From Straminergon stramineum (lineage: Eukaryota > Streptophyta > Bryopsida > Hypnales > Calliergonaceae): DNA of 64,000 bases. The translations under genes and the position numbers were made by a program. The notes beneath the pieces were generated by a model, which made no database searches, was not told the DNA's origin, and saw only the letters and a program-made list of their open reading frames with translations. Location of the stretch: NCBI GenBank assembly GCA_963920665.1, contig OY987266.1:13335001-13399000 (forward strand), written 5' to 3'. This document shows positions 9,765 through 62,898 of the stretch, one piece after another (position 1 is the first letter of the stretch; every line of letters begins with the position of its first letter).

Positions 9765-10145
9765 TTACAAACCTTTAGATAATCCAAGTTGTTGCAAATC
9801 ATGAATAAAAGTAGAATCTTTCACATCAAACTTGGCAGCATTTGAGACCAGGAAGGGCTGCAATGCACACCTTTGCATCTTAGACCCCTGCTCTACATCA
9901 CACAAGCATTTTATGCCTTCATAATGTACATTCCAGCCATGGGAAAATAATTGGCAAGGTAAGGCTTGGAAGCATAGGAGAAATTTCTTACCAAGAGATG
10001 CGTCAGTTGTAAGTCTTAATGCATTTTCAAACTGCATACACATTATGGGAGGCGACCCCTTTCCTATCCCCCCCAACCCATATTCATTTGCAAATAACAA
10101 GTCTCCAACGTCACTTTGAATACTAGACAAAGAATTTGAGTACAA
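9765..10145 (-). CDS. Candidate exon of an unrecognised protein
   Basis: An open frame of 126 codons that looks more protein-like than its surroundings (balanced composition, several Cys and Gly). A plausible splice acceptor (TTCTTTGTCTAG) lies near its upstream end and a weak donor (AAAG/GTTTGT) near 9775. Upstream on the same strand, 11387-11539 begins with ATG and could be a first exon, but the phases do not join without a further exon. The segment just upstream of this exon (10145-10205) resembles 11226-11285, suggesting a local duplication. No family recognised; it could be a transposon remnant. Confidence 0.3.
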   Translation of the reverse strand: MYSNSLSSIQSDVGDLLFANEYGLGGIGKGSPPIMCMQFENALRLTTDASLGKKFLLCFQALPCQLFSHGWNVHYEGIKCLCDVEQGSKMQRCALQPFLVSNAAKFDVKDSTFIHDLQQLGLSKGL

Positions 10146-10384
10146 AATTCACTCAATATAGTAGACAGAGTGACAATGTTGGTCAGAATCCAATCCAAGC
10201 AAAGTAAGGTAGTCTGCTCTTAAAGCGACCTTTTTAAGGGCTGGTTGGCCTTTTCAATGGTTCTCAGATGCATGAAATTATTTTTTCTTATTTTTCACTT
10301 GAAGAAAAATTGATGTGGAATCTAACCCAAGTGGTTTCATATTTTTCGGAGCATTTTCGAATTACTTATGAATTTCTAAAGAAT

Positions 10385-19392: not shown

Positions 19393-21006
19393 TCATTGAA
19401 AGGTCCAGAAGGCTTGAAAAAGTTTGAGTTCAAAGGACGTACCACTCATTAATAAGCACTTCAAATGCTTCAATGACGAACAAATGCTTGCAAAAGATGG
19501 ACGATTAGTTGGTTTGGGGTCCCAACATTCTTCAATCAAAGTCTTCAATTTTGAAGGACAATACTCAGGTAAAGTAGGACGTCCACCCTTCAATACCTTC
19601 TTCTTGATATTGGTGGAAGAAGTCTCTTGTGGAAAAGGGACGTCTCCAGTCAAAATCTCAAAACAAACCATCCCAAAACTGTACACATCGGATTTCTTGG
19701 GATACTTAGGCCCTGCTTCAAGCATGCATGTACTCGGTTGCCCATCGCTGTTATGAAACTTAATAACTTCAGGAGGCATCCATCGATTTGTCCCAATATT
19801 GAAGGTTTGATTGGAATACCTGGTGCTGCTTTCCTTGATCTTGGCAAATCCAAAATCAGCCACTTTAATAAGCACATACTGAACTTCAAGATCTGGTGGC
19901 AGGATGTTTTTGACAAGAATATTGAGGGACTTCAAGTCCCGGTGCAAAATACCATTTTGATGCAGGTAATTGACACCTTCACCGATTTGGAGAATCACAT
20001 CAACAGCTTCAAAAACACTAAAGGGTGGAAAATGGGGATCGGCATCCAATCGCCTTTGCATGAAAGAATGGAGATCTTCGTCCATCAACTCCATCACGAT
20101 GGAACACTTGCGCTTGTCCATTGCACAACAAAACATCGATATGATGTTGGGATGACACAATCTTGCAAGGATCTGAGCTTCCTGCAAATAATCGGGATGT
20201 TCTGGACCATAAAACGTCTTCTTGGCAACCGGAGTTCCCAACCACATAGCCTTGTGGACGGTAGCAGAGGCACCCTTCCCCAACTGCTCGGTTTGACGAA
20301 CCATTTGAAAGATTCGTCCCAGAAAACCCCGATCATTGAAAGCACTCCAAAAAGGTGATTCTGGTGAAAGAGAGGTTGAAACTGGCTTGACTCTTTTGAG
20401 TCTTTGAAGTAAGTAGATCGCAAGATCCTTATCTTGAGCTTGTAAGGAAGGCAAATCCAATATCACTTTATCAAGTAACACATCCACATCCACACAAGCT
20501 TTTCTTTTGACAATCTCAACTTCTTCTCTGTCAATGATGTCAACTTCAGCTGCTGTTAGGGCCCTGGTTGCTCTCCATCCGGGACAAAAATAAACTCGAC
20601 AAAGCTCCAAATTGAATCCTAAGGATGAAACATACTCCGTAGTATTTGTCAATGTCATTGCAGCTTGAAGCCACTCATTTTTGCAACAACGTTGAATGAA
20701 GCTTTCAATTTTGAGAGCCGAAGCAAGCAAGAGCTTAAAGCCTTCAATGCATCTAGTCATGTCCTTAGAGGTACTGAATTCGGCAGTAACCAAGAAAAAT
20801 GTAGCGCTTTGTAGAATCACTTTGAGCTTAGCATCAAGATATCCGCACTGCTCATTGTTGAATTTCCGTGATGGCATCTCTTGCACACGTACCGAACATT
20901 CATGAGCAATATCCAAGTATGAATGAAGTTTGTCCATGCAATAGAGTATGAGATCTGCATGCAAAGAATTACGAATGAAACGCTTTAGCAATGAAGGAAA
21001 AACCAT
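19393..21006 (-). CDS. TKL-family protein kinase with helical N-terminal region
   Basis: One uninterrupted frame of 537 codons. Residues ~240-514 form a complete protein kinase of the tyrosine-kinase-like group: glycine loop GKGASATV (243-250), VAKK with the ATP-binding Lys at 263, HRDLKSLN (355-362) with catalytic Asp 357, DFG at 384-386, PPE at 411-413, DVYSFG near 440-445 and NRPSF near 501-505. All catalytic residues are present, so activity is expected. Residues 1-235 are helical and unlike a receptor ectodomain; there is no signal peptide or membrane span, so a cytosolic protein is likely. Part of this region (about 80-140) resembles the helical domain (DUF1221-like) that precedes some plant TKL kinases; that match is tentative. 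The frame stays open upstream of the ATG to a TGA at 21094-21096, so an earlier start or exon is possible. It lies directly downstream of the TIR-C48 gene on the same strand. Substrate unknown. Confidence 0.9.
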   Translation of the reverse strand: MVFPSLLKRFIRNSLHADLILYCMDKLHSYLDIAHECSVRVQEMPSRKFNNEQCGYLDAKLKVILQSATFFLVTAEFSTSKDMTRCIEGFKLLLASALKIESFIQRCCKNEWLQAAMTLTNTTEYVSSLGFNLELCRVYFCPGWRATRALTAAEVDIIDREEVEIVKRKACVDVDVLLDKVILDLPSLQAQDKDLAIYLLQRLKRVKPVSTSLSPESPFWSAFNDRGFLGRIFQMVRQTEQLGKGASATVHKAMWLGTPVAKKTFYGPEHPDYLQEAQILARLCHPNIISMFCCAMDKRKCSIVMELMDEDLHSFMQRRLDADPHFPPFSVFEAVDVILQIGEGVNYLHQNGILHRDLKSLNILVKNILPPDLEVQYVLIKVADFGFAKIKESSTRYSNQTFNIGTNRWMPPEVIKFHNSDGQPSTCMLEAGPKYPKKSDVYSFGMVCFEILTGDVPFPQETSSTNIKKKVLKGGRPTLPEYCPSKLKTLIEECWDPKPTNRPSFASICSSLKHLKCLLMSGTSFELKLFQAFWTFQ

Positions 21007-21008
21007 TC

Positions 21009-24000
21009 TTATTGGTAGGTGCCATATTGAACTAAGAGGTTTCTTCTGGGCTTCATTTGGGCTTCTATGCAGATTGGTTTGAACCTCATAGACTCATGAA
21101 ACTTCAGAGACTGATAGTACTTTGAATCCAAGGCATTCCCAATCTCCAAACTTTTCTGACCCTTTGAGGTAACACCCATCATTTGAAACCTCCTATTTTG
21201 CCAACAGTAGTTAGCTAAATCCCTTGAAATAACGAAGGAAACAAGGGAATATCCCAATAACTCAATTTGAAACCTATTACAGTCAATTACAACATCATTT
21301 CTTCATGTCCAAAGCAAATTAAAAGTGCTTGCACATGCATACCATTCCAAATCAAAGTGATGAAAACTTTACCTGTTTTTGGGACTTCTGGCAAACTGGA
21401 CGGCCCCTTGCCAACACTCGTGGAGGGCATGTCCCCTTCAACAACAAGAATGGAGGGTGAGAGCGGAGGGGCATCCCTGCCAAGAGAGAGCCATGATGAT
21501 CGTTCAGCCATGACTGTGGTGGACTTGTCAATTGAGAAGTCGTAATGGTCTAGTGACGCTGATTCAAGTGTAAAACGTTCCATGTAATACAACAAGTAAA
21601 TGCCAGAGTCATGTCCATTGTCTTCTTGGGGAACCTGAGATGTACAAACAAAAATGCTATCATACTTCTATAACTTGTAGATCTTTCGAAATTTTGAGAA
21701 GTTTACAGCATAAAAAGTGTCAAGCAATATAATGCATAAACCATCCAACATACCTTAGCTTCAACATATTTCATATGAAACAATGCTTGAAGAATGTCAG
21801 AATTTTGATGGATTTGGATCCATAAATAGAATATGAAACTAAACAAGAGACACAACAACCGTGAACAATGTCAATTAGTCACATGCTAGACATATTACGT
21901 ACATTGGACCATATAATACTATAAGTTTGATAGGGACTATTGAACAATGAACAAGTCTTCAGAGGCAATCAATCACAAGCATACTCTATCATTCCATTTG
22001 GGTCAACCATCTACTCTATGACCTCCTTTTGCAATTTAATACTCAAGAAAATGGTTCTTACATACACACTCTCAAACTTATCCAAACCTCTAGCAATTAC
22101 AACTAACTGGGAGCTTAAAACATCATTAAAAACACAAGAAACATCATCTTGGACTATGCTCAAATGTGGTAGCAATCTATTAAACTCTGCAAAAACTCAC
22201 CTCCGAATGTAACCCTCTAAGTCATCATGCTCCTCTTCCACCGAATACAAATGAAAGATACAAGGTGAGCGATAGTGCACCTCTGCCCAAAAACACTAGA
22301 ATGAGACATTCAAGCAATCCACAAATCTCTTGTACTATCATAAGCCACTATGAAGTAGAGAACTTCAAGTCTTACCAGTAGGCAATGTAGTAAGGTTGTT
22401 CAAATGATAAATGATGATGAGACTCCAATGCTCGCTGCCATTCATAATACATTCACCACAAACATGAAAGCCACATACACCGACATAAATCTATAGAATA
22501 CTATATCTACTACACCATACTAAAATTGCTCCAAATGGAAATTCCTTTGCATATGTTCTCATCGACTAAATGAAAGATAATACAATTCATCATGACACTT
22601 CAATGAGAAAATTCAATTCCATGCAATGCACAAAGAATGTGAACATTACTTTTTGTAGATAGGAATGAAAATGTAGTCCTTCGCAAACAAATTTACTCCC
22701 GGAATCCATTGCCATGCTTGCTCATAATCAATATTTGTGGATGTTTCGGTTCCAAAAGTTCTAATGAAGAAGGAACAATCGAAGAAGAAAAAGTGATCTT
22801 TGTCTTTAATAGAGAGAACATTTTTTTCCAAATACCTTCAAACAAGAAACACAATGGAAAGCAATGTGTCTCATTAGCAAGACATGTAAAGACTAGACAA
22901 CCTAGAAAATAAGATCAAAGATGCTCATCCCAAGAGTACAACTTCTTACAAGAAATACCAAAGGGCACCTTCAAATAGACAATTTTCAGACTATTCAAAT
23001 GATTCATCACTCATTCAAGTGGTACCAATAAATAGGAATACTCACTTAATATAGAAATCAATGATGCTAATACTCAAATGCCTCTTTGTTTGTAGACTTT
23101 GCAAATCCTCATCTTCAATTTTTACAAGATTTGGATCGCCATCAGGATAGGTGAGTAAGGTGGAATCCGATAGTCTAGCAAATTCAATCATTAAATCCCT
23201 TAACAATGAAAGGGGTGAAATCTCAATTGCCATGTGCTTCATCTTTCCAATACCAACCTATCAATCCAAAAATCACAAAAGTCAATCTATTAGGTCCAAT
23301 GTTCTTTCACTATCCAAGGAATAGAAGAAGTTATGGAGCAACATTGCCCTCTATTGTAGACTACTTTCAACAAGTACACATTTGGATGAAAGAATTCTAA
23401 GCAATTTCTACCTCATAATACTTCAAATGAAGAAGTAGCAACCAAGAAATCACATTAATTAAAAGTACATGCATGATACCTCATGTGAATTTCCTCGAAC
23501 ATGCAAATCCTCCCATTTGATGTTTGAAGTCAATATTTTGCAAATGTGAGACATAATTTCATTCTCATACCCTTCAACTTGCTTCCATTCAAGACCATAA
23601 GGTAAGCCATTGAACTTTGTGAGCAAATCAAGTGCATACTTCCAATCATCCACATTGATCCATCCTTTGGGATCCTCCCTTGCAAATGTCTCCCATTTGT
23701 CAAACCATCTTTGCCTTTTCTTCTCATTCTTCAACTCACTCAATGAAAGCCCACAAACTAGAGGAAATATGCCCAAATTCATACTTGATTGCCCTTCCTT
23801 CTTAGCTTCCACAAATGCATTGAGTTCAATCATGGGCCTTTTGGTCATGAAGTAATCCTCTGATATGACCACAACAAACAACTTGCATTGTTGAACAAGC
23901 TTCGATATCAAGCCCAAAAAATTCTCACCTTCAAGCAAACTTTTAGGGACCCCATCAAAAAAAGGATAGGGACAATGTTCCTCCAAGGCTTTGCATAGGT

Positions 24001-24332
24001 GACTCACAAAGTCTTTTTCAACTCCACTATGGCTAAGAAAGATCTTGGACTTGGGCTCTAAAATTGGGTTATCATTAATGGCTTCACTAGAACTGCAAGG
24101 CAACAAAATCTCTCAAAACTTGACGACACACAAATATCAAAGTGTATATAACATCTTGAAAGTACTACCAATACTTTGAATACAACTATGAAAGTGAACA
24201 AAGGTGTCCCTTTTACACTAAGATTAGGGTCTTTAGAAGAATTGATCAAAGAACCTCAAGAGTTATAGTATAACACCTAGGATCAATAGGAGTGTGTAGA
24301 CCATTCCCACCATAAAAGGTTCTACCCTTCAT
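21009..24332 (-). CDS. TIR domain fused to an inactive-looking ULP2/SENP (peptidase C48) domain
   Basis: Predicted exons in transcription order: 24332-24277 (tentative), 24092-23480, 23257-23046, 22835-22650, 22434-22376, 22282-22201, 21838-21754, 21634-21373 and 21214-21009 (tentative). All introns are GT-AG, every internal junction is in phase, and the model gives ~586 residues. Residues ~33-170 are a TIR domain (KIFLSHSG strand, FFDGVPKSLLEGENF loop, VVVISEDYF) that keeps the Glu used by NAD-cleaving TIRs (residue 108, in MIEL). Residues ~258-460 match plant ULP2 in order: YPDGDP, SIIDFYIKYL, VNLFAKDYIFIPI, EHWSLIIIY, PCIFHLYS, VPQEDNGHDSGIYLLYY. His 358 and the oxyanion Gln 434 are kept, but the catalytic Asp is Tyr 388 (codon 22247-22245) and the catalytic Cys is Ser 441 (codon 21607-21605). 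C48 enzymes remove SUMO; this copy may bind without cutting. Exon 1 and the C-terminal exon rest only on phase and splice sites. Confidence 0.85.
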
Positions 24333-24399: not shown

Positions 24400-24785
24400 T
24401 ATGGTGGCCGACCCCTTTCCGATCACCCTGCATTTTCACACTGTAGACTAGTTTCTTTCTATTCAAGTACTAATGAGCAGTGATTTCTTATAGCACAATT
24501 TCCAGTGTAGTTGTGGCATATTATGACAGCTATAAGACCCTCAATACTGCAACCAGCCCTTGGTCAAAAATAGGGAGGCCTATATGACCAATATGGGTCA
24601 AACAAAATCTTGAGCTATAAAATTCACAGAAATTATGTTTAGAGAAATAAAATTTTGAAAAATTATAGAACCCTTCCAAACTCTATTTCTCTACACGGGA
24701 AAATTTCCCCACTTGAGGAACCTGGGCTCCACGTATGCTTAATTGCTCAAGTGGTTGGAGATGGGTCGTATGCCTTATTCTCTCT
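24400..24785 (+). repeat. Dispersed repeat S, copy 2
   Basis: Counterpart of 5395-6005 without the 217-bp MITE. It lies just upstream of the tentative first exon of the TIR gene, so it may form part of that gene's 5' flank. No coding content recognised. Confidence 0.65.
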
Positions 24786-26773
24786 CATATTGATGATTGT
24801 AAATGCGTTGTGTGGCACTGTCATTACTGGAACGAAAAAAATTACGCTCACTCTCATGATGGCATCATGTCTCCACCCTGACTCTCATGTAAGCCATTCA
24901 GTTAAGGCTAGAGAAGACTGAAGATGCAAACTAACTAACATTGAGCCAACACATTCTCTAACAAAGAAACTTCCACCAAGCAGACTAGGCTTACTTTATT
25001 AGAGCCTTGAGTTCAGTACTCTACTCTCACAAAGATGTGAATTTGCCAGTTCTTCCCTCCAAACTTCTGCAACTGCAGATTTCAGATTTATACAACTACC
25101 GCAGTTACTCAAACTTGCCATTCAAAAGAATATCCCCATCATGGTGTTCTTATTTACTTCAGGTCAATACTTGGGCAAGCACATTGACATCCGACAACCA
25201 CATATCTCTAAACAACAAAACCAAAACTTACAGAAAAATAATTCCTCACTTGCTTGTAAGATTCCTGTCCGCAAACCTTGGATACGTGTTCAGAAGCAAC
25301 ATCATAGCACGGCATACGGATATGATTTGCGGGAGTGATGTCCACCTTTGCATTAAAATTTACTCCAAAATTAGTTCATAGCTTCATCAAATATTAATCT
25401 AAAATCAATCATTGTACAGGACCATTGCATCAGAAGTAGAAGGACCCTATCATGTCTTTGAACCCCTAAAACGACCCAACGACCTAAAATTGGGGCTTGC
25501 TTTTGTTTTTAAAGCATTTCAGTAGGCTCCATGAAGCCTTAGTTTTTGTCCAGGTTTAATTATTCTCTAAACAACACTAATAATGCTCCACTAGCTCTGG
25601 TTATACAAAATATGGCCGCATCTTAATTGTACATTTCATAACATGATTGATCATACTGGTCATTTTCAGAATAAAAATCCTTAGTCCATGAAAGAATAAC
25701 AGTATAATAAAAACTACTCTAACTTAACTTGTTATTATCCCAGACTCGAATGAGATAAATCAGATCACACGCAATTAGGTTGAGTGAAGGACGCAAGAAA
25801 CTAAGTTAGGCCCATGCCGGCAATAACACAACCGAAAAACTCACCACAACTAACAGAAATGGAGCTGCGAGGTCTAAATTGTGCTCACACCGCATCCATC
25901 AAAGAGCCGTGCTAGCTCCTCAGATCCACCTGAATGCAAATACAGACACTGGGAAGTGAACACTAGAACTGTGTCCATAAACGAGAATTTTCAAACCGAG
26001 GGATTGAACATTACAAACGAAACGCAAAAAAGATAAGCAGCATATGTCGGTCGATGTTGCTCTCCGTGCCATGAGATGCGTCAAGACAAGGTCCTGCTGC
26101 ATGACGACGCCCTAAACTCTCACCCTGACTTGCTATGTCCACTTCATCTACAACACTGTGAACTCAGGCTATGAACCTTACCTTACCTTTTGAATGTGGA
26201 CGTTGCTTGTACTGCAAGTTACACAAACCGTGAACGTCGACGCTCAGATGGTGTTCACTGGACCTTCAGAACTAGAGTCGCCAGCTTAAGAGCTTCCGCT
26301 CCTCGCAAGATATAATTGTCGGTACAAGGCATTCGTCCAGGAAACAAGCATCAACCAAAATGGAATCCGAATTCAAAAGCTTCAATTGTAAACGTGCTAA
26401 TGAAACGTAGCATAACGCTTCTCAAAGTCTCTAAGCGAAAAACGGTCCATAAATTCTACGCCATGAACTCTGTTTCAATATTGTGCATGAAACAAATAGG
26501 AAAGGAAATCTAGATCCATTTAGGTTACAATAAGCACCACTGGAAAAGGAATACTTGAACTCTTAACATGTCTTGTCAAATTCTCAAGATAAATGCTCCG
26601 GAATTAGGGACAATGGCGAATATAGAGGAACTGCACGAAGTCTTTCTGCAGCCGCAATCGCCGGCCTCTTCTCCACACACAAGTGTTCACGAATTTCGAC
26701 TCTCGGTGTCTGAAATTTCCCCAGTAATTGTACGCCCACTTCCGATGGTCGCTGGACTGGCAAACTACACACG
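24786..26773. other. Unassigned, partly GC-richer sequence
   Basis: A plus-strand frame of 124 codons (25007-25381) and minus-strand frames of about 60 codons (25920-26102 and 26584-26772) look moderately protein-like but have no recognised domain and no linked splice model. From about 25800 the GC content rises, as in a promoter or gene region, continuing to about 28.0 kb. Confidence 0.3.

Positions 26774-42007: not shown

Positions 42008-42076
<69 letters not shown>
42008..42076. repeat. (TTA)n microsatellite, about 23 units
   Basis: An uninterrupted TTA/ATT run. The leucine-only frame reported by translation here is an artefact of the repeat. Confidence 0.98.
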
Positions 42077-50995: not shown

Positions 50996-51927
50996 CGGTG
51001 GACTAACATGGGGGAGGGAAGAACTCAGTTCGCTCTCAATTTGTGGGGGATAAGCTTAAGTTAGTGATCGACAGTGAAGGACGATAGAATTTTAGAGCTC
51101 CAAGACTAGAGGTGTTAGCATGTCCGAGACGTCCATGTCCGTAAGGGACGACCCTTCTGAGTAACCAAGGACCTATTGTATGTGCTTTTAACTCGCCTAG
51201 GTCAAAACTCATAACTCATTTTGTACTTTCACTATAATTTTACTTTGTTCTGTAACAAGAAGCTCGATGCAAATGTGAGAATTAATTATCCCCTTAGCAC
51301 CCAAATCGTTTCTTGAATTTTTGTATATTTTTTGCTTATATTTTTTTAAGTACGTATTATTCACCTCAGTTTCATCATATACTGAAAAAATGTGGTTTTT
51401 TGAAAGACCAGTGTTGTTTGGATGAGTGAGAAGTTTTGTGGTCCGAAAAGTCCCTGAAACCTCAATCTACTGTATGTTCATCGTGCAGAATTGGGACATC
51501 AGAGCGCTAAGGGATTAATAAGAGTTTCGCATGTGATAGTAAGGATTTTGATCACCCTAATTTCACATATATGAAACATACTATCTGTCTCAATATTTTC
51601 ACATTAGGCTCTACTACTGAAAATCTATATTTTCAAATACATTTGGAATGCCTAAGCCATGGCAGCTCCCAAACATCCGAAGAGACCCAGCTTGAGTCTG
51701 GACGGTGTGTTCATTTGAGCTTATTAGAAAAAGATGAAGTGGAAATAAGTTGGGAAAACTCAGAGTGTTGGATTTGGAGTTGAACAGCTAAACCGACACT
51801 ATTATTTGGCTATTCTAATGATAATTGATTTTACAAAATAAAAAAACTTTCACTATTTTTGAAACCTCATAAATAATAATATTTCTTTTCTTGAATAATT
51901 ATGTGTCAAATTCACACTACTTTCTAT
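50996..51927. other. No recognisable gene
   Basis: GC-richer up to about 51200 (possible 5' flank of the preceding minus-strand candidate), then AT-rich. 51480-51520 (AGAGCGCTAAGGGATTAA) looks like an orphan right end of a TTAA-bounded element. Confidence 0.4.
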
Positions 51928-52504
51928 TTAACCCCTAAACGTCTAGATTCATCTCCAGAATTGACGATTTGAGAAAAATCATTATAAAGTTCAATTTCGA
52001 AGCTTTTTTGGGAATTAATATGAAAGTAAAAGTTGTAGAATTTGATTTGTAGATTCCATCTGTACGGTTAGATTCACCAATGCTATCACCAATCTTTTTT
52101 TACAAATTTTGAAAGAGAAATTCCAAAATTCCTTCAAAATTTGATTACAAGAAAAATATAATCATTTTTTCAGTAAAATTTGTTGGAATGGATTTGAAAT
52201 GGGGTTCTCTTGATACGGTGATTTTTTGAAATTTTTGTGTTCTTCAAATCTATGACCTCATTTTGGCAAATCATATTTTGAACTAAAGTCAATGCAATTT
52301 GACCACTTGACATCCTTGCACATTTGTAATTTTAGAAAAATATGTATACTAGTAACACCAAATCCAACCCTTGTATAGGACAACAAATTGATAACGTATC
52401 TCTACAAATTAAAATAACTTTCATCGAAGTAGTTAGGAGGATGAAACTACAGTTCGAATATGTTCATCGTCCAAAAAATGGATGTCAGAGTGCTTAGGGG
52501 TTAA
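51928..52504 (-). mobile_element. TTAA-bounded element, 577 bp
   Basis: Begins TTAACCCCTAAACGTCTAG and ends GAGTGCTTAGGGGTTAA. It is the inverted counterpart, of equal length, of 54621-55197. No coding capacity. Confidence 0.85.
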
Positions 52505-52619
52505 GAAAATCCAAATTGTTGAGTTTCAATAAACACTACATTGCCTTGTCAAAGTTGTAGTGATGGAAAAATTAGGTTCAATGAGCAATTTTTGATAATC
52601 CAAATTGTCTTGCTTGCAT

Positions 52620-53566
52620 ATCAACCCCTGTAGTTCCTAGACTATGTTTCCAATGAAAATACTCCTAAACTACCATTTTTAGTACAAGTACCAAATTTTT
52701 GAAAAAAAAGCTTTTTTCTGACACATGTCACCGTAGGATATTGTAGTATGCTGACTTGAGAGCATGTGGTAAAAAGTTCAAAAATTTCCACCCCATGGAT
52801 TGCAAGATAAAAGCATTTAAATTCTCTAAAATCATTTCTTTGGCCATGCAATAAATAGGGAAGCTACACTCCACTAGCTCACTTTTCTATGAAAAATTGT
52901 TCAAAATGGTGGTGCTTCTTTGGATTCTTTTTCCTAGACAAGTTGGCTACATGCTTGAAAATTTTCAAATCATTTAGATTGTACAACATATAGGAAAAAA
53001 TACTAAGTAGATAGTAATAGAGAATGATTCAAAATATTAAATTGTTAAGAATTTAATTATGGAATTGAGAAACGCCAATCCCAATGGTTGCAATGTTATA
53101 ATAAACAAACTACATCCTATGATTTTATTTTATTTTTAAAAATATTGAAAATTGAGTAAAATAAATGATTTTAAAGTTTATTCTAAAGTAGAGAATCCAT
53201 AACTGCCCATAAACAAAAAATCCTCATAATTTTTGACTCCTTGACCAAAATGGAATGACTCAAAGCTTTCCATGTATATATAACTTTAGAAAACCAATTT
53301 CAAATTTCAGTTTTTGAAAAAGATAATTTTTTTTCATCTCCCCGGATTGGCCATTTACCCAAAAAAATAACATATTAGGCCCTAAATTTTAACTCATATT
53401 TTCCAATGTCACTAAATTTAGTGCATATGAAAGGTATTCCTTGACCCAACCTTCTATTAAAATTTGGGCCAAAAATATGGAAATCTCTAGCCACACGTAC
53501 CTGCCCAAAATTACTATATAGCCAAAAAAACACATGTTGGTCCTTTAGAGGTTAATCAAATCATTT
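52620..53566 (+). repeat. Dispersed ~0.9-kb TTAA-ended repeat, copy 4
   Basis: Collinear with 1726-2654 (shared CATGGATTGCAAGATA, TTGGCTACATGCTTGAAAA, ACATCCTATGATTTTATTTT). The left end reads TCAACCCCTGTAG and the right end CCTTTAGAGGTTAA. Confidence 0.7.
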
Positions 53567-53786
53567 GGAGGGGTGCTATTATGTAAGCCTAGGATCATGA
53601 GCACATGAGCCCAAAAGGCTATACATCTATATTATAAGTCTTTATATTATAGAAACCTTCCAAGGCTATTATGCTCGCATTTTCATACTCATATTCTAGC
53701 ATCATTGCTTTAGAAGCAAGATATCAAGTCAAAAAGCCTATATGGCCATTGCCTCTTGGAACAAGGGCATTTATATATGTGGCAAG

Positions 53787-54521
53787 GGTGATTGCATGAA
53801 ACACTTGTCCTATTTCTTGTCCCTTTCGCCTCAAACAGATGGATTTTTGCTCATAACTTTTGTGTTGTTGGTCCCTTTGGCATGAAATTTAGAATGAAGG
53901 TACATGCAATAGTTCAAGACATTGAGTAATTTTTTCTTTTTAAATTTCAAAATTAGTTTACTATTATTAAACAAATTCATATTGGATGTCTACCTTAGCC
54001 ATTTGGGGGGGGGGGGGGGGGATTATTATTTTGGACCCAAAAATGCAAATTTGAAGCTCAAAATTGGTGTTCATGGACTTCTACTAAAGTTATATAAGTC
54101 CACAAAGAGAGTTTCTAAAAATAGTAAATTGTCCAACTTCCACATGTATTCAAAGTGCACTACCTTTGTACAAGTGTAGAGAACACAATTTGTTTTTCCC
54201 AATTGAAAGATGAAAATTCTTAAAAAGGAGCATCTTCAAGTTAGGAAAAATGGTTTTTTATTTTGAAATTTTGAGTCTCTTACTATCTTCCAAAAATCAA
54301 GTATTGTTCATTTTCTTGGTATTTTCCATTGTGGTTTTTTGGTTCATAACTTTTAGAGATAAATTCTTATATGTCTTAATTTTTAGAGGCATTGTATTCT
54401 CAATTCTATACAAATTATAGATATTTTATTTCATTTAAAAAAATATATTTCTACATGTCAAAGTATTGTAGTACTAAGGCCGATTTGAGCCAAAAATGGC
54501 AAGTGTTTCTTGCAATGATCC
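53787..54521. mobile_element. GATTGC-ended element, copy 2 (about 735 bp)
   Basis: Starts GGTGATTGCATGAAACAC and ends GTGTTTCTTGCAATGATCC, an inverted repeat of about 18 bp with a few changes. The interior is the reverse of 39392-40110. A run of 17 G lies at 54005-54021. Confidence 0.7.
54005..54021. repeat. (G)17 homopolymer
   Basis: An uninterrupted G run inside a transposable element; the length may be affected by sequencing error. Confidence 0.9.
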
Positions 54522-54620
54522 ACAAAGAAGAATGAGGTATTTTCCACCTAGTACACTACTCCAATGAGGTCTTCTACTATTGAAATTATACAAAAGATTC
54601 CAACTTAATACACATTGATT

Positions 54621-55197
54621 TTAACCCTTGAATGCTCCGACATCCAATTTTTGGACAATGAACAGATTGAATCTCAAGTTTCATCCTCCTAACTACTTGG
54701 ATGAAAGTTATTCTAATTTGTGGACATACATTATCAAGTTGTTGTCCTATCTAAGGGTTGGATTTGGTTTTACTAGAATACATATTTTTCTAAAATTACC
54801 AATGTGCAAGTATGTCAAGTGGTCATATTGCATTGACTCTAGTTCAAAATTGGATTTGAAAAAATGAGGTCATAGAGAGGAAGAACAAAAAAATTTCAAA
54901 AAATCACCATGTGGAGAGATTTTCATTTCATATCCATTCCAACAAATTTTACTCAAAAAATGATAATATTTTGTTTGTAATCAAATTTTGAAGGAATTTT
55001 GGAATTTCTCTTTCAAAATTTATCAAAAAAAAATGGTCATAGCATTGATGAATCTAACCATATAGATGGAATCTACAAATCAAAATCTACAACTTTTACT
55101 TCTATACCAATTCCAAAATATGCTTCCAAATAGCACTTTATAATGATTTTTCTTAAATTGTCAATTTTGGAGATGAATCTTGACATTTAGGGGTTAA
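54621..55197 (+). mobile_element. TTAA-bounded element, 577 bp
   Basis: Begins TTAACCCTTGAATGCTCCG and ends TTGACATTTAGGGGTTAA. Same family as 51928-52504 and 62315-62898. Landmarks: GTTTCATCCTCCTAACTAC, TATCAAGTTGTTGTCCTATC. No coding capacity. Confidence 0.85.
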
Positions 55198-55234
55198 AAG
55201 ATGTCTTCAATAGAAAAATGCAAACATACTAGTG

Positions 55235-62314: not shown

Positions 62315-62898
62315 TTAACCCTGGAACACTCCGACGTCCATTTTCTGGACGATGAACAAATTGAATCTCAAGTTTCATCTTCTTAACTACACGGATGAAA
62401 GTTATTATAATTTGTAGAGATACTTTATCAAGTTGTTCTATCTAAGGGTTGGGTTTGGTGTTATTAGAGTACATATTTTTCTAAAATTACCAATATGTAA
62501 GTATGTCAAGTGGTTGACCAAGCTGAAATTGCATTGACTTTAGTTCAAAATTGGATTTGCCAAAATGAGGTCATAGATTTTAAGAACACAAAAATTTCAA
62601 AAAATTACCATATCAAGAGAACCTCATTTCAAATCCATTCTAACAAATTTTACTCAAAAAATGATAATATTTTTCTTGTAATCAAATTCAGAAGGAATTT
62701 TGAAATTTCCCTTTCAAAATTTATAAAAACATATTGGTGATAGTCTTGGTGAATCTAACTATATGGATGGAATCTACAACTCTCAGCCTACAACTTCTAT
62801 TTGTACATTAATTTCAAAATATGCTTCCAAATAGCACTTGATATTGATTTTTTTCAAATTATCAATCTTGGAGATGAATTTGGACGTTCAAGGGTTAA
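62315..62898 (+). mobile_element. TTAA-bounded element, 584 bp
   Basis: Begins TTAACCCTGGAACACTCCG and ends GGACGTTCAAGGGTTAA. Collinear with 54621-55197 over its whole length. No coding capacity. Confidence 0.85.

Follow-up and report, generated by a model that had tools for sequence, protein, structure and literature searches.

A stretch of moss DNA in which seven consecutive minus-strand exons join a plant TIR domain to a ULP2-like C48 domain raises the question of whether these exons belong to one gene, from which parents such a gene was assembled, and which of its parts could still function. The window referred to below is the whole stretch of 64,000 nucleotides that was analysed, from Straminergon stramineum (C4:13335001-13399000), and the genome searched comprises 326 Mb in 59 contigs. 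The closest proteins come from Ceratodon purpureus (Ceratodon below), in agreement with a moss host. The locus is read here, with a probability of roughly 0.58, as a three-parent chimeric gene on the minus strand, which would give one mRNA and a TIR-C48-kinase protein. The TIR-C48 fusion put forward in the preliminary description holds at the level of gene model and descent, but that account missed the kinase third, the three-parent origin, and the loss of catalytic residues.

Exon Structure of the Locus

The seven exons originally proposed (24092-23480, 23257-23046, 22835-22650, 22434-22376, 22282-22201, 21838-21754, and 21634-21373, minus strand) were borne out, with all borders AG..GT and compatible phases, and together they give 499 codons with no stop (24092-21373). 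Taken as single-exon frames, the first exon was recognised by Pfam as TIR and the last as a weak C48 match below cut-off; the spliced product reached 5.5e-11 for TIR_2 and 3.7e-14 for Peptidase_C48, both above the curated cut-offs. These exons are real, but the gene is longer than had been supposed, with start codon and stop both outside the earlier limits. The whole gene model runs on the minus strand from 24332 to 19393 and comprises nine coding exons and 1038 codons in the domain order TIR, C48, kinase, the predicted splice sites of this open frame being all canonical. On sequence grounds, the start codon is likely that at 24332 and the stop likely that at 19395-19393. The features of the model are as follows.

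24782..26640, minus strand: 5′ flank, probably including the 5′ UTR, with blocks that match DNA ahead of the TIR-NB-ARC-LRR gene L057.
24277..24332, minus strand: predicted exon 1, coding (MKGRTFYGGNGLHTPIDP), donor phase 2; in-frame ATG and conservation in relatives.
23480..24092, minus strand: exon 2, TIR domain; Pfam TIR_2 and TIR, Foldseek fold, residue columns.
23046..23257, minus strand: exon 3, about 22 nt of NB-ARC-side linker, then C48 from about 23158; L057/L058 DNA match and C48 alignment.
22650..22835, minus strand: exon 4, C48; spliced alignment, intron positions and phases common to paralogs.
22376..22434, minus strand: exon 5, C48 with the catalytic His (codon 22430-22428); spliced alignment, residue columns.
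22201..22282, minus strand: exon 6, C48 with the catalytic Asp replaced by Tyr (codon 22247-22245); spliced alignment, residue columns.
21754..21838, minus strand: exon 7, C48; spliced alignment.
21373..21634, minus strand: exon 8, end of C48 with Cys replaced by Ser (codon 21607-21605), joint 2, then first-exon sequence of a kinase gene (MAERSSWLSL...); limits of homology.
19393..20954, minus strand: exon 9, N-terminal region of about 219 residues and protein kinase domain, stop at 19395-19393; Pfam kinase 3.7e-50.

In the Pfam search of the spliced 1038-residue product, TIR, C48, and kinase all scored above cut-off, and NB-ARC and LRR gave no match. An independent check with a phase-aware protein-to-genome spliced aligner, using the C48 domains of Ceratodon P0011 and Physcomitrium P0018 as queries, reproduced the C48 borders from 23046 to 21634 to the base with both queries and gave only short chance exons past 21525. 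At the 5′ end, the ATG and donor of exon 1 are both present in L057, the donor is also found in L058 and L062, and the exon 1 block is kept upstream of all five TIR relatives compared. Other 5′ exon candidates from a donor scan, all at 25250 or above, were dropped, as conservation across the TIR relatives favours 24332-24277; N-terminal stretches of Ceratodon TIR proteins matched nothing useful in the upstream DNA. At the 3′ end, the exon 9 acceptor (20954) is of phase 1 and fits the exon 8 donor. Just upstream of this acceptor, the kinase frame of the related gene L040 contains stops, and the four kinase copies have no common start codon there. A terminal exon at 21273-21215 was first taken as the 3′ end and demoted once the kinase paralogs were aligned.

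Elsewhere in the window, scans for tRNAs and Rfam families returned no matches, and nine of ten other ORFs searched against Pfam (from 52 of at least 90 residues) were without a match. An ORF at 9768-10148 on the minus strand matches the COMMD HN domain (3e-05) and is perhaps an exon of a COMMD-like gene. A long inverted repeat occupies 51927-55198, with arms of 578 nt, 87% alike and 2116 nt apart, and a further copy at 62315-62898; an array of 23 TTA copies is found at 42008-42076.

The TIR Part and Its Receptor-Gene Parent

Foldseek comparison of the TIR model (mean pLDDT 66) gave the RPV1 TIR as best match (2.0e-07). Searching the genome at the DNA level revealed two close TIR relatives, at C4:12.89 and 12.93 Mb, which match the TIR exon, the following intron, and the first 22 or so nucleotides of exon 3. 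L057, a gene with TIR, NB-ARC, and LRR matches, shares with the window the start exon, TIR, first intron, and 5′ flank; the TIR protein identity is 69%, against 51% for the Ceratodon TIR-NB-ARC-LRR protein P0001. This homology reaches upstream to 26640, where blastn blocks of 82-85% cover 26640-26341, 25846-25394, and 25395-24782, and it ends at 23235. The start of exon 3 (VGIGKMKH, relative VVLEKMKQ) corresponds to the linker before the P-loop. An initial interpretation of VGIGKMK as a P-loop remnant was abandoned, because the L057 alignment (VVLEKMKQ...GMGGIGKTT) places the linker ahead of that motif. Joint 1 thereby falls between 23235, the end of the L057/L058 DNA match, and 23158, where the C48 alignment starts. 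The moss TIR-NB-ARC-LRR receptors continue with NB-ARC and LRR, whereas the window gene has C48 and kinase in their place. The TIR/NB-ARC intron (23479-23258) is of phase 0 in both the window and L057; phase 2 is given for this intron in TNL genes by PMC3352924. Large clusters of places matching the TIR exon of the window lie at C6:14.6-15.6 Mb and C1:39.3-42.7 Mb of the same genome (G000).

The catalytic Glu of the TIR domain is kept, by aligned position, at 23827-23825. Four residues before it, at 23839-23837, the window has Arg where its relatives have Trp, the first residue of the W-P-M-I-E motif of moss TIR-NB-ARC-LRR receptors. This Trp, which matters for NAD+ cleavage, was present in nine of nine distinct TIR places examined (14 rows including five repeats; about 35 places listed) and in the five solved TIR relatives with alignments displayed, out of 16 matched. 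A role of the TIR domain in assembly would be more likely than NAD+ cleavage, catalysis being probably weak or absent. For fern and gymnosperm TIRs, PMC11218826 describes Glu mutants that abolish cell death.

The C48 Part and Its Family

The Peptidase_C48 match (53.5 bits, cut-off 20.7) covers profile positions 1-186 of 217, and the best matches among solved structures were SENP7 and SENP2 chains, with Ulp2 lower. The "full" ULP2-like fold claimed earlier could not be upheld: the profile match stops at position 186, homology to C48 relatives stops near 21554-21525, at joint 2, and the catalytic domain is incomplete. In the exon then regarded as final, the last 155 or so nucleotides are kinase-gene sequence and not C48.

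The C48 part extends from about 23158 to 21554 and carries the five introns of a moss C48-Myb-LRR family. Positions and phases of all five are identical to those of the window in 17 of 18 distinct family loci, L027 differing at one. The family so defined comprises 18 distinct places among the loci L003, L018, L019, L021-L023, and L025-L036, together with Ceratodon P0003 and P0011-P0017. A tree of 40 rows places the window C48 with the family loci and the Ceratodon C48-Myb-LRR proteins at 96/95, on a long branch (1.03), the position of long rows being uncertain. The underlying spliced alignment includes 29 loci, 13 of 42 having been omitted (those overlapping the window, the kinase loci with their neighbours, and L037 for its overlap with L018), and the tree leaves out L024, which is the same place as L003, and the poorly aligning L001, L002, and L004-L008. 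Over C48, the Ceratodon C48-Myb-LRR protein P0003, of the same clade and with the same introns, is 49% identical to the window. Three family loci examined (L043, L045, and L046) also contain stretches that resemble P0011 in its Myb and LRR parts. The C48-Myb_DNA-bind_4-LRR proteins examined on Ceratodon chromosome 4 have the order C48, Myb, LRR; in the window, a shortened C48 is followed instead by the kinase. The ULP2-like C48 family is expanded and clustered at C4:7.46-9.32 Mb and C5:16.6-16.75 Mb, and its members examined (three loci, and Ceratodon proteins by Pfam) are fused to Myb/SANT and mostly to LRRs as well. A literature search found no paper on this moss C48-Myb-LRR family.

Comparison of residue columns across the 39 other C48 rows revealed that the active site of the window is altered at two of three positions. 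The catalytic Cys, present in 38 rows and Ser in one (Ceratodon 4G117400), is Ser; the catalytic Asp (Asp in 32, Asn in four, Lys, Ile, and a gap in one each) is Tyr; and the catalytic His, found in 37 rows, is retained. P0003, P0011, and the family members of the same genome keep the catalytic Cys, in contrast to the window, in which both Cys and Asp are missing. The Ceratodon protein KC19_4G117400 (P0020), a second moss C48 with Ser at the Cys position, sits on a branch separate from the window. The assignment as a SUMO-acting domain stands as far as the profile match goes and fails at the catalytic Cys and Asp. Loss of these residues argues against SUMO cleavage, for which the domain lacks the usual chemistry; SUMO binding or a role as effector bait would be compatible with it.

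The Kinase Part and Its Tandem Relatives

The downstream kinase has three relatives in tandem, at C4:13.269, 13.303, and 13.323 Mb. Together with the window copy (19393-21541), they make up an array of four MLKL-like kinase genes that vary in their first exons. DNA homology to these paralogs begins inside exon 8, between 21541 (L061) and 21523, with L039 aligning from 21529; taken with the end of C48 homology at 21554-21525, this puts joint 2 at about 21560-21529. A 5′ region of about 0.97 kb common to the paralogs L039 and L040 had no match in the window at E 1; judged by this comparison, the window kinase has lost that region. About 200 nt present in L039 and L061 are missing from L040, and in L061 the upstream frame is broken.

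The closest solved structures to the kinase domain are 6lba (2.6e-40) and 6ka4 (5.4e-36), presumably Arabidopsis MLKLs. Plant MLKLs are pseudokinases, with which one aligned entry agrees: 6lba has HGDLN and GFG, in contrast to HRDLKS and DFG in the window kinase, which retains the HRD and DFG motifs. In the window kinase and in these proteins alike, some 220-250 N-terminal residues precede the kinase domain. The N-terminal region of the window kinase gave no significant match in the PDB (best E 1.3) and none in Pfam. The HeLo four-helix domain had no sequence match, and a model of the kinase ORF built without an alignment was poor (mean pLDDT 35). The plant MLKL family is described as conserved across seed plants in a review (PMC9950082), according to which Arabidopsis MLKLs act in TNL-mediated resistance; the joining of a TIR domain to an MLKL-like kinase would be sensible in this light.

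Selection and Decay

Function is best supported for the kinase part. Its omega on the window branch after duplication is 0.35 [0.21-0.57] and reached 1 in none of 400 resamplings, although part of this constrained time may precede the loss of the 5′ region; omega is 0.47 on the L039 branch and 0.48, 0.50, and 0.96 in paralog pairs. For the TIR part, the pairwise value against L057 is 0.44 [0.30-0.66]; on the window branch alone (dS 0.20), it is 0.66 [0.35-1.93] with 14.5% of 400 resamplings at or above 1, so that constraint there is not significant, and the branch of the intact sister L057 has 0.24. The C48 part gave omega values of 0.19-0.46 against seven paralogs (control paralog pairs 0.49 and 0.21), at dS values of 1.0-2.4 that are near saturation and reflect mostly the time before fusion.

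Neutral simulations were used to gauge the survival of the open frame. Runs from L018 to 49% identity accumulated a mean of 8.2 stops, with none of 300 stop-free, and 0.7% of 300 runs to 75% identity were stop-free, much of the simulated time in both predating the fusion. For the 458 codons of TIR plus C48, 33%, 6.5%, 0.5%, and 0% of 1000 runs remained stop-free at 0.02, 0.05, 0.1, and 0.2 substitutions per site, respectively. With odds that depend in this way on the age of the fusion, a very young fusion would leave room for decay, and only an older one excludes it.

Proposed Origin and Function

Descent of the parts, the open frame, the domain matches, the residue losses, and the constraint on the kinase are established at the level of sequence comparison. 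A duplicated TIR-NB-ARC-LRR gene contributed the upstream region, start codon, TIR exon, TIR/NB-ARC intron, and about 22 nt of the next exon; a gene of the C48-Myb-LRR family added five introns and most of its ULP2-like domain; and a tandemly duplicated kinase gene supplied the 3′ third. Transcription driven by the receptor gene's upstream region would give a single mRNA and, from it, a TIR-C48-kinase protein devoid of NB-ARC. Joints 1 and 2 both lie inside exons and both preserve the frame, which was counted in favour of one gene. Constraint on a kinase that lacks the 5′ region of its paralogs, together with the presence of the receptor upstream region, suggests that the latter is used, although a promoter in the retained stretch of about 570 bases (21541 to 20966) may serve the kinase instead. 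The likely output of the protein would be the kinase, with catalytic motifs and constraint kept, and the C48 part would act as a binding module only, with SUMO or a binding partner of C48 proteases as its ligand. A further proposal, tentative and somewhat doubtful, is that exon shuffling among the three parents gave a moss immune protein without NB-ARC, with TIR and a dead SUMO-protease domain as sensor or bait and an active MLKL-like kinase as output. Against a functional chimera were counted the loss of conserved residues in two domains (TIR and C48), the omega of the TIR part, and the stop odds for a young joint.

Alternative Readings

The most serious competitor, an unlikely one that still deserves weight, holds that the locus consists of two neighbours, with the kinase, translated from its own ATG (MAERSS, near 21511) or a later one, as the sole functional product and TIR-C48 as a recent stop-free relic that contributes at most a promoter or leader. 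It draws on the MAE start being kept in L039, L040, and L061 while the sequence upstream is broken or shortened in L061 and L040, and it fits the TIR constraint that falls short of significance, the losses in the C48 active site, and the TIR Arg for Trp. It has to contend, however, with 458 codons free of stops (probability 0.065, 0.005, and 0 of 1000 runs for 0.05, 0.1, and 0.2 substitutions per site, respectively), a dS of 0.20 on the TIR window branch, though the fusion may be younger, predicted splice sites all intact with both joints in frame, and the disappearance from the window of the 0.97 kb upstream of L039/L040. A different division of the locus, into a two-domain TIR-C48 protein ending in exon 21273-21215 and a kinase expressed separately, is improbable. 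An in-phase acceptor and stop are present there, and this alternative 3′ exon, which would end the protein after C48, was counted against one gene; at least part of it nevertheless aligns, in the kinase paralogs, to DNA that follows the same donor, which identifies it as kinase-gene sequence and not an old 3′ end of C48.

As to function, the chimeric protein might serve as an integrated decoy, the dead C48 mimicking a host ULP2-type protease or a SUMO-pathway surface so that engagement by an effector switches on TIR or kinase. A bait would be in keeping with the inactive active site, the parent C48 family has LRR fusions of its own, and C48 occurs as an NLR-integrated domain in three angiosperms according to PMC4759884; yet the product has no NB-ARC and so is not an NLR with an extra domain inside it, the C48 omega is low and does not indicate positive selection, and no effector is known, which makes this version rather unlikely. 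An assembly or annotation artefact, or a ULP1 domain captured by a transposon, is very improbable. A dispersed repeat (D11) does lie near the gene at 24639-24778, but the TIR and kinase segments are each diverged from every other copy found. The best matches elsewhere reach 79% (TIR part) and 85% (kinase part), and the absence of any near-identical segment at another locus speaks against misassembly. The C48 introns, being those of a host gene family, run counter to transposon capture, and no repeat pair framing C48 was found among the 20 (of 21) direct families and 25 (of 33) inverted pairs listed for repeats of at least 60 nt.

Comparison with Known Systems

The remark that no described TIR-C48 fusion was known held up in that none was found, either by a literature search working mostly from listings of papers or among proteins with precomputed Pfam annotation. 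The latter searches listed 10, 73, and 18 matches within length limits of about 285-907, 499-1587, and 560-1783 residues, the 73-match search having used words from P0003 and not from the window. Elsewhere in the genome, the listed C48 places are all more than 1 Mb from any listed TIR place, the lists being lower bounds and, for TIR, confined to close DNA relatives. The remark needs qualification in that Sarris et al. 2016 (PMC4759884) had already reported C48 as an integrated NLR domain in strawberry, soybean, and maize, the sole C48 case met with in the literature consulted, and the joining of C48 to immune receptors is therefore not itself new.

If expressed as one protein, the gene would represent a TIR-C48-kinase architecture of which no description was found, an immune-type chimera whose birth can be traced to its parents with both joints mapped, and a moss gene whose TIR, SUMO-protease fold, and kinase could be told apart in their roles by ordinary knock-outs. 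The C48-Myb-LRR families of two mosses further suggest that ULP2-like domains are used together with LRRs in this group. PMC3352924 describes TNL and PK-NBS-LRR classes in moss, and PMC11218826 integrated domains of moss NLRs. The window gene resembles the NLR-integrated C48 domains of PMC4759884 in combining C48 with immune-receptor sequence, and differs in that NB-ARC is present there and absent here. The TX or TIR-X proteins of PMC11218826 likewise have a TIR domain without a complete NB-ARC-LRR, the X in the window gene being C48 and a kinase.
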